Shown here piece by piece: positions 11,685 to 47,773 of a stretch of DNA of 64,000 nucleotides (the stretch's first letter is position 1; each line of letters starts with the position of its first letter). The notes beneath the pieces are model-generated. The model was not told where the DNA came from, did no database searches, and saw only the letters and a list, made by a program, of their open reading frames with translations. The translations under genes and the position numbers were made by a program. The DNA is from Prochlorococcaceae cyanobacterium jk18x22bins.40. Its GTDB lineage: Bacteria > Cyanobacteriota > Cyanobacteriia > PCC-6307 > Cyanobiaceae. The stretch is taken from positions 1 through 64,000 of the forward strand of contig JAJDVL010000023.1 in the NCBI GenBank assembly GCA_022826155.1, read 5' to 3'.

Positions 11685-12632
11685 ATGGAAATTCTGGTGA
11701 TGGGGGGCACCCGGTTTATCGGTGTGGCCCTGCTGCCCCGGCTTCTGGCCGCAGGTCACGGCGTGACGGTGTTCAGCCGGGGCAGGCGACCGGTCCCCGT
11801 GGGGGTGGACCACGTGCGCGGTGACCGGCAGAGCCCGGAGGATTTGCGCCAGTTGGCGGGGTGCCGTTTTGACGTGATTGTTGACACCAGTGGCCGCCAG
11901 TTGGCGGAGAGCCAGCAGGTGATCGCCCACACCGGCTGGCCAAGGCACCGGTTTCTTTACGTGAGTTCGGCAGGAGTTTATGCCAACAGCCACCAGTGGC
12001 CCCTCACGGAGCAGGCCCCGCTGGATCCCCGGAGCCGCCATGCCGGCAAGGCGGAGACAGAGGCCTGGCTGCGGCGGGAGGGGATTCCCTTCACCAGCTT
12101 CCGCCCCACCTACATCTACGGCCCCGGCAACTACAACCCCGTCGAAAGCTGGTTCTTTGCCCGGATCCTGGCAAATCGCCCCGTGCCCCTTCCCGGCGAC
12201 GGCCAACTCATCACCCAACTGGGCCATGTGGACGACCTGGCGGAGGCCATGGCCCGCAGTCTGGAGGTGGACACCAGCACCAACCGGATCTACAACTGCT
12301 CCGGCGCCATGGGGGTCACGTTCCGTGGGCTGGTGGCTGCCGCAGCCCAGGCCTGTGGCCGCAGCCCGGAGCAGGTGGAGTTGCGCAGCTTTGATCCCGG
12401 CCTGCTGGCGCCCAAGGCCCGCAAGGCCTTTCCCCTGCGCATTGCCCATTTCTTCACGGACATCAACAGGGTGTGTCGGGAGTTGGCCTGGCAGCCCCGC
12501 TTTACTCTGATGGCGGGCCTCAAGGACAGCTACGAGAAGGACTTCAGCCAACAGGCTTGTCAGACATCAGGCCAGTCACCGGACTGGAGCCAGGATGAAC
12601 AACTCCTGGCCCATGCCGTTCCCCTGCCCTGA
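11685..12632 (+). CDS. CSP41-type atypical SDR, RNA-binding/endonuclease-like protein
   Basis: 315 residues. An extended SDR fold with a Rossmann motif at the start (MGGTRFIGVALLPRLLAAGH) followed by VTVFSRGRRP. The sequence YVSSAGVYANS lacks the catalytic YxxxK, as in the chloroplast stem-loop-binding proteins CSP41a/b, and DPRSRHAGKAETEAWL, SFRPTYIYGPGNYNP and GHVDDLAEAMA also follow that family. Plant homologues bind and stabilise rRNA and photosynthetic mRNAs, and the cyanobacterial role is less certain. It faces the autotransporter gene tail to tail with a 30-base gap. Confidence 0.82.
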   Translation: MEILVMGGTRFIGVALLPRLLAAGHGVTVFSRGRRPVPVGVDHVRGDRQSPEDLRQLAGCRFDVIVDTSGRQLAESQQVIAHTGWPRHRFLYVSSAGVYANSHQWPLTEQAPLDPRSRHAGKAETEAWLRREGIPFTSFRPTYIYGPGNYNPVESWFFARILANRPVPLPGDGQLITQLGHVDDLAEAMARSLEVDTSTNRIYNCSGAMGVTFRGLVAAAAQACGRSPEQVELRSFDPGLLAPKARKAFPLRIAHFFTDINRVCRELAWQPRFTLMAGLKDSYEKDFSQQACQTSGQSPDWSQDEQLLAHAVPLP

Positions 12633-12662: not shown

Positions 12663-15182
12663 TTACCAGCGCAAGGCGCCGCGCAGCATCAGGCCGTGCT
12701 CGGGACGGTCATTGTTGGCGGCCTCGTGCCGGGCGCCTTCAAGGCTGACACTCCTGTCGCCTGCCATCTGCCAGCGTGCCCCCATACGCCATGACTGTGT
12801 CCCGTTGCCACTGAGCCCCAGTCCCGTATAGGGCGTCACCACACCCCCCAGTACCTTGGGGGCATCGAAGCCGTAGCCCACTTCCGCATTCAGGCGGGCA
12901 TAGTTGCCCCCTGCCGTTCCAGCGTCAATGCCACTCTCCCACAATCGCTGGACGCCGCTGTCCGTCCGGGCCCCCCAGGACGGTTCCACCGCCAGCGCCA
13001 GGCCGTGGCCCGAGGCGTTGGGGGCGATGCGCACCAGACCACTGACACCCGTCTCCGCAGTGTCGCCGCTGTGGCTCACCAGGCTGCGGAGACGGCCCTC
13101 CACGGTCAGCCGCGCGCCGGGGTTCTCATAGCGCAAAGCGCCTCCAACTTCGGCGCCGGCGCCGGTCTCGCCGTCCCCCGTGTCGTTGCGCAGGCCCGCC
13201 TCCAGCGATGAGGTGAAGGTGGCGCCCGAATCCAGCTTGCGGACGTGGGCGCCTTCCAGCACGAACCGTTGCCGTCCCACCTGCAGCGCCATCTCCTCAA
13301 TGCTCCCGGCCCCTTCCACGTCCGCCCAGGTGAAGGCCACTTCCCCCTTGACGTTCAGGTTTGTGGCGCCACCGGGGATCAGTTGATCGCTGGAGGCCAG
13401 GGTTCCCTTGAGACCCGCTGCGAACATCCGCTGGCTCAGGTCGCTCTCCTGCGCAGGGGCCGCCTTGTCGTCAACTTCCACCTTGCCGAAGCCATAGCCG
13501 GCCATGGACCACAGGCTCATGCCGCCCGGCATCTGCCAGCCCACATAGGGGTTGAAGCTGAGTAATCGCGTGGTGAGATCACCTGAGACGCCGGAGGCTT
13601 TGTAGTCCACGGTTCCCCGCGACCAGGACAGGGCCAGGCCTGCCAGCAGGTCTGCGCTCAGTTTGGTGTCAATGCCCAGGTTGGCGCTGGCGACGTTGCC
13701 GTCGTAGTCCACGGACTTGGGGGTGCCGCCGGAGATGCCGCGGTAGTCCCCGCTGCCCCAGAGGGTGAATTGCCCCAGAGGGGAGTCCTGCCCACCGCTG
13801 CTGCCGCTGTTATCCGCCATGTTGATGGGGATGGTGAAGGATGAGTTGGCAAGCAGCCGGTCCAGGTCAATGGCGCCGTCAGCCAGTGCAGGTCCGTTTG
13901 TCCGCAGGGCATCGGGGAGGGTGGACGCGCCGCCCAGGCTGAACGCCACAGCCGGTCCCGTGGGGGAGGCGGCGCGCTCGATGCGGCTGGAGACCGCATC
14001 CACCGTACTGGCAGTGACAGACCGCATGATCTGCGGCAGCACGGCCTCCACCACCGTGCTTTGGCTCACCTGGGATGGCCTCCGGTAAAAGCCCGAGCCG
14101 AAGACAATCGGGACCTGGACGGTACTTCCATCCGGTCTGGGGATCTCCATCTGGAACTCGCGGACGTAGCCGATTTTTGGGATGTCGGCACTGTCGAAGG
14201 CGTCGTTGGGATCATCGAAGTGGTAGTCCACGAAGCCGCCTTCCGGGCTGCTTTCTGCCGCCTCAATAAGCTGCGGCAGAATAAACTCTCCGGTTACAAC
14301 GTCACGGGCAACAGGTCTCAGGGGTTGAAGTTCGTACGTGTTTGGAAATCCGGCGTGAAACAGGATGGTTCTGTCGACTAGATTCCATACGTAGAGGTAC
14401 ACGGAACCGTGCCGCCACGGCCCGTTGGGATCACGCATGGCCAGCCTCAGCCTTGTGCCAGCCTCTGGGCCGCCGGCTTTGAACCTGTCGATGTAGTAAT
14501 TCCCGGCCTCTGTGACAAAGGCCTTCAGTGTGTCCCGGTCCACCACGTCCTTCGCGGCAATGGAGGGGTTGCCGTAATCGACCTCCTCGTCGGCAAAGGC
14601 AACCAGATGGGACGTGTCCAGATCAAACCCCGCCGTCAGCACAACCGGGGTCCCGAAACCGGGTCCGATATAGGCGGTGGCGTAGGCGTCGGAGGAGGCG
14701 CCGGGGACGGGAAAATATCCACCGTTCCCGCGGGCGGCTGCAGCCAGGGCCGCAGGAAGATTGGTCATGTCGCCTCGTTCAATGCCCAATGCTGCAAGGA
14801 TGTCCCGGTAAATTGAGGGCTTGAGCTGTCTGGCCGACAAGGACATGTCCTTGCCATGGAAGTATACCCTTCCTTCTGGCGTGAAGCGCACGATGTAGGT
14901 GGAGCCGGAATACCAGGGGCTCCCTTCCTGCCTGATGACGCATGCAAAAGAAATCGCCGAGGATTCTATGGCGCGCGCTCTCACAGCCAGCATGAAGTCC
15001 TTCAGACTGCGGGCGCCGTTGTTCACGTCCTGCGCCGTTACACTGGGAGCCTGAGCAGGTCGACGAGTCGGACACACTGCTGCTTCACTCGTCTGTGCCA
15101 GGGTCGGGGGCGTGTTGGCTAAGCTAAGGAGGCCCGACATCATGAGCAGACCAGTCGGCAATAACTCGGATCTCCGGATCAT
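12663..15182 (-). CDS. Autotransporter with tandem Cache-like sensor domains
   Basis: 839 residues from the ATG at 15182. A signal peptide (LLPTGLLMMSGLLSLANTPP, cleavage near TLAQ, residue 30) is followed by two Cache_2-like modules. The first is about 50-190 (YSGSTYIVRFTPEGRVYFHG, ending PVVLTAGFDL). The second is about 215-368 (GSVYLYVWNLVDRTILFHAG, GGFVDYHFDDPN, KIGYVREF, ending VFGSGFY). A linker of about 100 residues precedes a beta-barrel translocator (about 470-839) that begins LGQFTLWGSGDYRGISGG, has alternating strands and ends in Trp (LMLRGALRW), the usual outer-membrane signature. Cache domains normally sit in inner-membrane receptors, so this places a small-molecule-binding module on the cell surface. 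The product faces csp41 convergently and is divergent from clpB2. Confidence 0.8.
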   Translation of the reverse strand: MIRRSELLPTGLLMMSGLLSLANTPPTLAQTSEAAVCPTRRPAQAPSVTAQDVNNGARSLKDFMLAVRARAIESSAISFACVIRQEGSPWYSGSTYIVRFTPEGRVYFHGKDMSLSARQLKPSIYRDILAALGIERGDMTNLPAALAAAARGNGGYFPVPGASSDAYATAYIGPGFGTPVVLTAGFDLDTSHLVAFADEEVDYGNPSIAAKDVVDRDTLKAFVTEAGNYYIDRFKAGGPEAGTRLRLAMRDPNGPWRHGSVYLYVWNLVDRTILFHAGFPNTYELQPLRPVARDVVTGEFILPQLIEAAESSPEGGFVDYHFDDPNDAFDSADIPKIGYVREFQMEIPRPDGSTVQVPIVFGSGFYRRPSQVSQSTVVEAVLPQIMRSVTASTVDAVSSRIERAASPTGPAVAFSLGGASTLPDALRTNGPALADGAIDLDRLLANSSFTIPINMADNSGSSGGQDSPLGQFTLWGSGDYRGISGGTPKSVDYDGNVASANLGIDTKLSADLLAGLALSWSRGTVDYKASGVSGDLTTRLLSFNPYVGWQMPGGMSLWSMAGYGFGKVEVDDKAAPAQESDLSQRMFAAGLKGTLASSDQLIPGGATNLNVKGEVAFTWADVEGAGSIEEMALQVGRQRFVLEGAHVRKLDSGATFTSSLEAGLRNDTGDGETGAGAEVGGALRYENPGARLTVEGRLRSLVSHSGDTAETGVSGLVRIAPNASGHGLALAVEPSWGARTDSGVQRLWESGIDAGTAGGNYARLNAEVGYGFDAPKVLGGVVTPYTGLGLSGNGTQSWRMGARWQMAGDRSVSLEGARHEAANNDRPEHGLMLRGALRW

Positions 15183-15245
15183 GGCTCCCAACCTTGCCGC
15201 CTTACCGCACACTAATTTCTACTATTGCATACACGCCTTGAGCCC

Positions 15246-18074
15246 ATGAGTCTGATCACCCAGCCTGAGCGCTTTAGCGAGGAGGCCTGGGAATTGCTAT
15301 TGGCTGCCCAAGCCCAGGCCCAGGCCTGGCGGCACCGGCAAATGGACGTGGAGCATTTGCTGTTGGCATTGTTGGATACCCCTGTCGGGGAGGCCTGGCG
15401 GCGACGGCTGCGGCTCCATCCGACGCAACTCTTGCCCCAACTGGACGAGTTCTGTGGGGATCAACCCACGGAAGACAGTGACGTCCTCTACCTGGGGCCT
15501 GACCTGGATCAACTCCTCAATGACGCGGACCGCCTGGCCCACCGTTGGGGATCCAGCAGCATCGACATGGCCCATCTGCTGCTGGCCCTGGCGGAGGACG
15601 AGCGGATTGGCGCGGCGCTGCTGGCGGATCAGGATTTGGGACCGGCCGAGATCATGCGGCGGCTACGGGTGCAGCCCATGCCCCCCGCCTCGGCCAACCG
15701 GCAGTCAGCGGCCAATCGTCACCAGTCCCCTCGGCAAAACCACAACGCACTACCACCGTCGCGCTCCTCCAACAGCCCGTCACCAGAGCAGCCCAACCGC
15801 ACAGCCACCACCAGGCTGGGGGCCACGGAGTCCCCAGCCCAGCCCCAGCGGCAGCGCTCCTCTCTCCAGGAGAATGGGTCCATGGCCAAGGCAACTCCTC
15901 TGCCTCCCCCTGACGGCCAGCCAGTGGAGACCCAAAACCCTGCCACGCCGTTACCACCGCCAGAGCCGTCGGCTCTGGAACGCTATACACAGGATCTCAC
16001 CGCCTTGGCCCAGGAGGGGAAGTTGGATCCGGTGGTGGGGAGGGACCGGGAAATTCGCCAGGTGGTGCAGGTGCTCTCGCGACGCACCAAGAACAACCCG
16101 GTGCTGGTTGGCGCCGCCGGGGTGGGCAAGACGGCCCTGATTCAGGGACTGGCCCAACGCATTGTAGCGGGCAAAGTGGCGGATTCTCTCCTGGGACGGC
16201 GTCTCCTGGCCCTGGAGCCGGGCAGTCTGATCGCTGGCGCCAAATACCGCGGTCAATTCGAGGAACGCCTGCGGGCGGTTCTGGAGGAGGTGGCCACCGC
16301 CGATGGTCAAGTGGTGTTGTTCATTGACGAGCTCCACACCCTGGTGAACAGCAGCCGCTCCAGCAGCGATGTGGGCAGCTTGCTGAAGCCTGCCCTGGCC
16401 CGTGGCGAGTTGCGCTGCATTGCGGCCGCTACCATGGACGAGTACTGCCGCAGCGTGGAGAAAGATCCGGCCCTGGAGCGACAGTTTCAGCAGGTGCTGG
16501 TGCGTGAACCTTCCCACCAGGACTGCCTGGCCATTTTGCAAGGACTGCGGGAGCGCTATGAGCGCCACCACGGCGTCACCATTGCCGATCAAGCCCTGGA
16601 GGCCGCCATTCGCCTGGGGGACCGCTACATCAACGACCGCTGCTTGCCGGACAAGGCCATTGACCTGATGGACGAGGCGGCAGCCCAGCTCAGGCTGGAC
16701 GCCACCTCCAAGCCGGAAGTGGTGGAGGAGGCGGAGCAGGAGTTGCGCCGTCTGGAGTTGGCCCTGGTGGCGGCGGAGCGGGCGCCGGAAGCAGAGCGGC
16801 AGCACCTGGAGCGGCAACGGGCCCGGGCGGCGGCTACAAGCCGGGACCTGTGCCAACGCTGGGAGCAGGACCGCAAGCAACTGAGCCAACTCGGCCAATG
16901 GCGCCAGCAGGAGGAGGATTTGCGCCAGCGGATGGCCAAGGCTGAGCAGGAGGGGGATCTGGAGGCGGCAGCGCGGCTACACTACGGGGAGTTGCGGCAC
17001 CTGGAGCAGCAGTGCCAAGCGTTGGAGGCCCAGCGGCGGGAAGCCCAGCAACGGGGGGAAGCCCTCCTGCGGGAGCAGGTGGAGGATCAGGACATTGCCG
17101 AAGTGGTGGGTCGCCGGACAGGCATCCCCCTGCAACGGCTCATGGCCGGGGAGCGGCAGAAGCTGCTGAAGTTGGACCAGCAGTTGTCCCGCCGGGTTCT
17201 GGGACAGCCGGCTGCGGTGGAAGCAGTCACTGCCGCCATCCGTCGCGCCCGGGCCGGCATGAAGGACGTGCGGCGCCCCGTGGGCTCTTTCCTCTTTTTG
17301 GGACCCACCGGTGTGGGCAAGACGGAATTGGCTCGGGCCTTGGCGGCAGCGCTATTTGACCAGGATGATGCCCTGGTGCGATTGGACATGTCCGAGTACA
17401 TGGAGCGGAATGCGGTGGCGCGCCTGTTGGGGGCGCCGCCAGGGTACGTGGGCTATGAGGAAGGAGGACAGCTCACGGAAGCCATTCGCCTGCACCCCTA
17501 TGCGGTTGTGCTGCTGGACGAGGTGGAAAAAGCCCATCCCGACGTGTTTAACCTGCTGCTCCAGGTGCTGGACGATGGCCGCTTGACGGACTCCCAGGGC
17601 CGCGCCATCGATTTTCGTCACACAGTGCTGGTGATGACCAGCAACCTCGCCAGCCGCCAGATCCTCGCCGCCAGCAGTGGGTCAGACGGGGAGCAGGGAC
17701 TGGAGGCAGCCATTGACCAGGCCCTCAAGGTAAAATTCCGCCCGGAATTCCTCAACCGGATTGACGAGGTGGTCCGTTTCCACCCCCTGGGACCGGAGCA
17801 GATCCACCCCATCGTGGAACTCCAGATCCAGGAGCTTGGGCAGCGGCTGGCGGAACAGAATCTCCGCTTACAGGTGGATGGGGAGGTGGTGAAGGCCCTG
17901 GCTCAGGATGGATACGATCCGGAGTTTGGAGCGCGCCCGTTGCGCCGTCTGCTGCGGCGGCGCCTGGAAAATCCCCTCGCCATGGAAGTGCTGGGGGAGC
18001 GTTTCACTGATGTACAGGGGGTGCGCGTGCAGCTCTGCGGTGATGGAACGCTGGAGTTCGTTGCACTGCGCTGA
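15246..18074 (+). CDS. clpB2: ClpB-type AAA+ disaggregase (second ClpB paralogue)
   Basis: 942 residues from the ATG at 15246. An N-terminal Clp repeat domain ([34 protein letters not shown]) is followed by an unusually long Pro/Gln/Ser-rich linker at about residues 145-240, then NBD1 (Walker A GAAGVGKT near 290, Walker [10 protein letters not shown]), a coiled-coil middle domain (about 500-620) and NBD2 (GPTGVGKTE near 685, LLDEVEKAH). The middle domain marks ClpB rather than ClpA/C. It lies directly upstream of secE-nusG, an arrangement I recall from marine picocyanobacterial ClpB2. Some sequences of the ClpB2 type are thought to act outside heat-shock rescue. Confidence 0.87.
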
Positions 18075-45842: not shown

Positions 45843-45851
45843 ATTTTGATC

Positions 45852-47348
<1,497 letters not shown>

Positions 47349-47524: not shown

Positions 47525-47773
47525 GGGATGCACCTCCGAGTTGTGTGGGACAGGGTGCGTTGCTTCGGGCCGAGGGGCCTTACTTCCGCCTGAGCATCAG
47601 GTCAACGAGGGCTAAATAGTAGCAGTTGCTACCAAATACTGGAAAGTGGAGTGGCCTGTTCGTTAAGAAATGGGGCTTGTCTTGGGGTGATGGCCTGGTT
47701 TAGCGTTATGGCTTGCCTTTGCATCCCATAACTGGGCAGGCTGTAGGCAACAGTGACCGTCGTCTTCACCCTG

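Follow-up and report, generated by a model that had tools for sequence, protein, structure and literature searches.

A tandem Cache pair joined to an autotransporter barrel in a sponge-associated cyanobacterium, with relatives on other carriers in several phyla

Among the commonest receptor domains of bacteria, Cache domains are known from membrane receptors, of which they form the input part. In Prochlorococcaceae cyanobacterium jk18x22bins.40, a gene within the first 64,000 nucleotides of contig JAJDVL010000023.1 (the window, meaning the whole stretch analysed) carries two such modules on a different kind of protein, ahead of an outer-membrane barrel. What would a receptor-type binding module do on such a carrier, and how did it come to be there? 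An earlier note on this DNA had read one frame with a signal peptide, two Cache modules, a linker and a barrel ending in Trp; the open reading frame, Pfam, AlphaFold2 (AF2) and structure matches agree, and we confirm both the frame and its architecture of two Cache modules and a barrel (Table 1). The bounds proposed then for the modules and the barrel (50–190, 215–368 and ~470) were right to within a few residues, except at the N-terminal edge of module 2 (~205).

Table 1. Coordinates of the gene and of the parts of its protein in the window.
Feature	Residues	Window position	Strand	Basis
Tandem-Cache autotransporter gene, ATG to stop, last residue Trp	839 aa	12663..15182 (start at 15182, end at 12663)	minus	single open frame
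Signal peptide (MIRRSELLPTGLLMMSGLLSLANTPPTLA|Q)	1-29	15096..15182	minus	basic start, hydrophobic core and cleavage-like site, by eye from sequence
Cache module 1	~47-195	14598..15044	minus	AF2 model, profile-profile match to module 2, column counts
Cache module 2, sCache_2 fold	~205-371	14070..14570	minus	structure matches; dCache_2 below cut-off
Putative carboxylate pocket of module 2	Y262, H276, Y320, K336	14175..14399	minus	4k08 alignment, PscD structure, near-invariance in 59 relatives
Linker helix, contains LPQIMRSVTASTVDAVSSRIERAA	374-404	13971..14063	minus	alignment, full-length model, EspP/NalP match starts
Outer-membrane barrel, 18 predicted strands, C-terminal Trp	~470-839	12666..13775	minus	PF03797, AF2 strands, structure matches

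The gene stands alone between a Clp ATPase gene (15225–18074, plus strand) and an epimerase-like gene (11685–12632, plus strand), the latter next to hisA, and no operon or regulatory partner was seen among these neighbours. The window forms part of a 126-kb contig in a genome of 1.99 Mb. Because the surrounding genes, as read from sequence, are of ordinary housekeeping type and share 87–92% identity with their counterparts in congeners, mis-binning of the contig is unlikely. The nearest named relative is Candidatus Synechococcus spongiarum SP3, to which the contig with the orthologue belongs. Candidatus Synechococcus spongiarum is a sponge symbiont, and since the genome belongs to its genus, the earlier guess of an association with sponges was right. 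Elsewhere in the window, a TPP riboswitch (45848–45946, plus) and a glutamine riboswitch (47554–47609, minus) score over their Rfam gathering scores. Compared with an intact, 74% identical orthologue in the congener G006, the Cache autotransporter frame is under purifying selection, with a dN/dS of 0.33–0.44 over passenger and barrel; by part, the ratio is ~0.33 for the barrel and for module 2 and 0.63 for module 1.

The Pfam signal for the Cache modules is weak. The dCache_2 profile matches residues 256–344 with an E-value of 6.5e-4 and 19.4 bits, below its cut-off of 26.5, and the orthologue reaches 25.9 bits; we therefore file the protein as a divergent Cache relative, by fold and pocket, rather than as a curated member. 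Other relatives exceed the Cache profile cut-offs, among them L070 (40.0 bits), L078 (68.1 bits) and stand-alone forms. Stand-alone Cache pairs of the same genus match sCache_2 at E-values of 5e-15 to 3e-23, far over the sCache_2 and dCache_2 cut-offs, and align over their whole length with the passenger of the window protein. An AF2 model of residues 30–375, built from 59 sequences, shows two Cache modules with a pLDDT of 92.4 and a pTM of 0.90. Module 2 (residues 212–371) matches four sCache_2 sensor structures at Z-scores of 13.5–14.2, namely 2qhk (14.2), 4k08 (13.6), 5g4y (13.5) and 4exo. Aligned to each other, the profiles of modules 1 and 2 match over their full length (probability 96%, E 2e-9), and in the model both modules have the same order of helices and strands. 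The Cache folds proposed for residues 40–370 thus appear in the prediction, in module 2 through its structure matches and in module 1 through its element order and its profile homology to module 2. Taken with the stand-alone relatives, these results make the Cache identity of the modules firm despite the Pfam scores.

The C-terminal β-domain belongs to the autotransporter family. PF03797 matches residues 474–638 with an E-value of 1e-7 and 32.4 bits, above the cut-off of 26, over profile positions 1–166 of 255. In a full-length AF2 model (pLDDT 75, pTM 0.47), a helix spans residues 374–404 and 18 strands run from 472 to 837. The best structure matches are to autotransporters (EspP, Z 18.4; NalP, 17.4; EstA, 16.4; Hbp and AIDA-I also at Z 16–18), in keeping with the family first proposed, and they span the linker helix and roughly the first 13 strands. 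Matches to EspP and NalP start at residues 367–372, and the helix, conserved across phyla in the alignment, lies where expected, at what we take to be the place of the pore-crossing helix of type Va autotransporters. A classical autotransporter translocator has 12 strands; with 18 predicted in a model of low pTM, we read the domain as an enlarged autotransporter barrel. Pfam and NCBIfam revealed no transmembrane helix and no cytoplasmic signalling domain, the C-terminal half of the protein being barrel.

Module 2 appears to retain a carboxylate-binding pocket. The chemoreceptor PscD holds the carboxylate of its ligand by Tyr90, His103, Tyr143 and Lys156, and all seven of its contact residues are identical in Adeh_3718 (4k08) (PMC5062169). 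Through the 4k08 alignment, the four PscD residues correspond to Y262, H276, Y320 and K336 of the window protein, and these are conserved in 59, 57, 59 and 59 of the 59 relatives, respectively. The residues point to a small carboxylate as the ligand of module 2. One of the closest structures to the module, 4exo, holds pyruvate (PMC5062169). The aromatic sandwich of PscD, Trp92 and Trp145, is mostly replaced by Tyr and Phe in the Cache-pair relatives, so the pocket does not reveal how large the ligand is. Of the four pocket residues, module 1 retains Y96 and H109 and is without the second Tyr and the Lys. In a stand-alone relative (L093), module 1 appears to hold all four; from this, the pair probably began as a soluble protein with two sCache_2 modules, whose first pocket was altered in the long form.

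The protein thus combines parts of two known systems. Module 2 shares its fold with the sCache_2 chemoreceptors PscD (5g4y), Adeh_3718 (4k08) and a Vibrio parahaemolyticus MCP (4exo/2qhk), and with the first two also all four carboxylate-contacting residues. Unlike them, the window protein has no transmembrane anchor, HAMP or signalling domain, and it carries two modules in tandem on an outer-membrane barrel. In EstA (3kvn; Z 16.4), a type Va autotransporter whose passenger stays uncleaved, one chain runs, as it does here, from a signal peptide through a globular passenger and a helix to a C-terminal barrel; the passenger of EstA is, however, an esterase rather than a Cache pair, and its barrel has 12 strands against about 18 predicted here. 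The stand-alone Cache pairs of the genus match the sensor parts of the kinase MctS and the chemoreceptor CtpM far under whole-protein cut-offs; unlike the stand-alone pairs, those two belong to the membrane receptors and have a kinase or methyl-accepting part.

How far does the Cache pair extend beyond this genome? Relatives numbered 264 in a scan of 84,980 species genomes, and the best 80, representing 79 loci, were kept. Among these, close relatives of the pair occur in metagenome-assembled genomes (MAGs) of about eight other phyla, with passenger identities to the window protein of 43–57% in nearly all of them. By NCBI names, the phyla represented are Pseudomonadota, Gemmatimonadota, Latescibacterota, Acidobacteriota, Binatota, Chloroflexota, Myxococcota (labelled Deltaproteobacteria), Aminicenantes and Cyanobacteriota, although some records named Gemmatimonadota (L067, L093) share a phylum sample with Latescibacterota. 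Judged by MAG names and among these best 80 of 264 matches, 68 of the 79 loci come from series tied to marine sponges, and no locus has a recognisable source other than sponges. The jk18x/p16x series contributes 33 loci, RHO/IRC/COS 21 and SB06xx 14. The jk18x names denote Caribbean Ircinia (PMC9531527); IRC and RHO are codes for Ircinia ramosa and Rhopaloeides odorabile, and SB0677 is a sponge Nitrospira reference (PMC12203066). COS, p16x and the rest of SB06xx were assigned to sponges by inference, and we found no paper for the series names CO36xxx, Plut_88899, Versatilivorator, RHO1_bin and COS4_bin. In wider samples, each with its seed genome counted, the pair is sparse: one of 386 Cyanobacteria matched, the window's own genome, as did 4 of 385 genomes in the alpha class, 2 of 369 in the gamma class and 2 of 301 Chloroflexota; the Latescibacterota group had it in 18 of 64. 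Some genomes hold several tandem copies. Among 60 relatives of the window genome, only members of its genus carry the pair, so that the search of other cyanobacteria suggested earlier led no further than this genus, the wider spread being among sponge bacteria of other phyla. The earlier note knew of no described system with this architecture in picocyanobacteria. We found no report in the open-access literature of a Cache autotransporter or of a Cache module shared by several phyla, and among the papers listed none on sCache/dCache proteins from sponges; the architecture is no peculiarity of picocyanobacteria, for the pair occurs in many phyla.

The carrier of the Cache pair sorts with the phylum; the autotransporter is one carrier among several. 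In Pseudomonadota, 21 of 22 ORFs end in an autotransporter barrel, the other one being cut off. A FlgD/T9SS-like tail follows the pair in 23 ORFs of Latescibacterota/Gemmatimonadota; in the Latescibacterota group it scores 31.7 bits for FlgD_ig, over the cut-off of 27, and 22.4 bits for Por_Secre_tail, under 27. SprA, the translocon of the T9SS, was found in all five Latescibacterota-group genomes tested and was absent from the genomes of the window's cyanobacterium, the alphaproteobacterium, the Bryobacterales and the Caldilineaceae. Eight ORFs of Acidobacteriota have extra Cache modules. Chloroflexota have short or C-terminal TM forms; the protein in Caldilineaceae (L105), for example, is short and lipoprotein-like, and that in a Dehalococcoidia MAG (L112) has a membrane segment at its C-terminus. 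As these different export routes would lead to the same end place, surface display would be their common factor, independently of the barrel prediction. Further variants were noted in passing: a Bryobacterales protein (L078:3833-6829) has four more Cache modules after the pair and no visible anchor; Binatota proteins (L063:4997-5458, L127, L128, L131 and L136) have a common 150-aa tail, without a Pfam match, that is possibly an unknown surface anchor; and a Gemmatimonadetes Cache autotransporter (L091) has a shorter barrel region, its tail of 353 aa against ~470 possibly reflecting in-frame loss of several strands.

The window gene was probably acquired whole, barrel included. Its barrel shares 65% identity with that of an alphaproteobacterium (L068) and 60% with that of a gammaproteobacterium (L092), against 28% with that of a second Cache autotransporter encoded by its own genome. 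In a barrel tree, limited as a test by a sample that beyond the genus was gathered with a Cache query, it nests among proteobacterial barrels (SH-aLRT 98–100), which argues for acquisition in one piece; the barrel of the second copy nests in the genus's own family, suggesting that there the Cache passenger was joined to a local barrel. That second copy (L002:229-3999, contig C28) is intact, with 1256 aa and two Cache pairs in tandem. Some supported groups in the passenger tree are cross-phylum; for example, a Latescibacterota-group genome falls with Acidobacteriota, and a gammaproteobacterium with Chloroflexota and Binatota. Gemmatimonadota/Latescibacterota pairs were not counted as cross-phylum because of the shared phylum sample. 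Because the deep branches of this tree lack resolution, the Cache part by itself points to no donor, and plasmid and phage records gave no match, leaving no visible vehicle for the transfers.

Within the genus, the locus is old: a broken copy in G004 (L047:2700-4711) lies between the same neighbours, and a remnant in G009 (L051:2377-2821) is flanked on the epimerase and hisA side. With the gene broken or reduced at one locus in these two congeners and not found in others, it is also dispensable. Remnants occur in G003 (L048 and L054) as well, and identity between congeners is 69–74% for the Cache autotransporter against 87–92% for the neighbouring genes. Three genus members encode stand-alone exported Cache pairs without a barrel (L007:1453-2532, minus; L049:2563-3498, minus; L050:2597-3520), some with both pockets mostly intact. 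Autotransporter-type barrels are also expanded in the genus (G000–G009), several genomes of 1.5–2.5 Mb giving about 10 to 17 matches, with Calx-beta, fn3 and GDSL-lipase passengers (for example L011, L013, L056 and L009); no other genus matched among the 60 relatives searched for this expansion.

We favour, as moderately probable, an exported and non-signalling Cache pair, held on the cell surface by the barrel, with module 2 binding a carboxylate, and spread by horizontal transfer among sponge bacteria. The signal peptide would take the protein across the inner membrane. The barrel would insert in the outer membrane and the linker helix, judged by homology and the model, would hold the pair at the cell surface. 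Module 2 would offer a working sCache_2 pocket for acetate, pyruvate, propionate or lactate, or for a carboxylated group on a larger molecule, and module 1 a related but altered one. With no membrane helix, kinase or methyl-accepting part, binding would not be relayed inward by the protein itself; its likely use would be to capture, or attach to, a ligand in sponge tissue that bears a carboxylate. Horizontal transfer would have carried the module across many phyla of sponge bacteria, in each of which it was re-fitted to the export route at hand. The computation shows the export signal, the Cache fold, the pocket residues and the type of barrel; surface display, carboxylate binding and a role toward the sponge are what we infer. 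On balance the earlier reading of a surface-exposed ligand binder or adhesin is supported. The pair might instead be a structural surface adhesin or spacer whose outer face binds host or neighbour surfaces, the pocket being irrelevant. Two missing pocket residues in module 1, the adhesion-type passengers (Calx-beta, fn3) of the genus's other autotransporter-type proteins and the tandem copies in some genomes would suit such a role, but the complete pocket of module 2 is kept almost without exception over many phyla and constraint is stronger on module 2 than on module 1, so we think it rather unlikely.

It is quite improbable, in our judgement, that the passenger is periplasmic and the barrel without a translocator role, the protein binding carboxylates and perhaps passing them to a transporter or to a receptor not seen here. 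The prediction of more strands than in a classical translocator and the barrel-free exported pairs of the genus speak for this; the best structural matches of linker and barrel are nonetheless autotransporters, and relatives in other phyla carry other surface-directed tails, including T9SS-like ones in SprA-bearing genomes. Decay of an acquired gene without present function in this strain would account for the pseudogene in G004, the remnants in G009 and G003 and the low identity relative to the neighbours, yet the frame here is intact over 839 aa, the G006 orthologue is intact too, dN/dS over passenger and barrel is 0.33–0.44, and the same genome has its second intact copy with four Cache modules, which makes decay very improbable. 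A broader form of the favoured reading, which we hold to be unlikely, would make the pair a surface key shared across the sponge microbiome and exchanged between phyla, one that recognises a sponge-derived carboxylate, possibly on host glycans, and aids settling or staying, with the export route of each phylum used to mount it. The adhesion proteoglycans of sponges carry pyruvylated hexoses (PMC7828597); to link these, through the pyruvate in 4exo, to the ligand is speculative.

Some published observations lie close to this picture. Cache domains are reported to be enriched in sponge Thaumarchaeota and have been suggested to serve host recognition (PMC7848895), which resembles the surface Cache domains on sponge symbionts proposed here; those proteins, however, are archaeal and without an export barrel, and they are not known to be this tandem module. 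In another sponge cyanobacterium, fibronectin, cadherin and autotransporter domains have been noted together in one protein (PMC6506613). In the open-access literature, the one paper to contain both 'Cache domain' and 'autotransporter' is a Desulfovibrio adhesin-regulation study.

In the window protein, a receptor-type Cache domain is separated from signalling and, as we propose, placed on the cell surface. The same passenger is found in sponge bacteria of many phyla, on carriers that follow the export machinery of each, and this recurrence of one passenger on phylum-matched carriers indicates a selective pressure that these bacteria have in common within sponges. The Cache pair offers a concrete candidate for the means by which unrelated symbionts deal with one and the same host.
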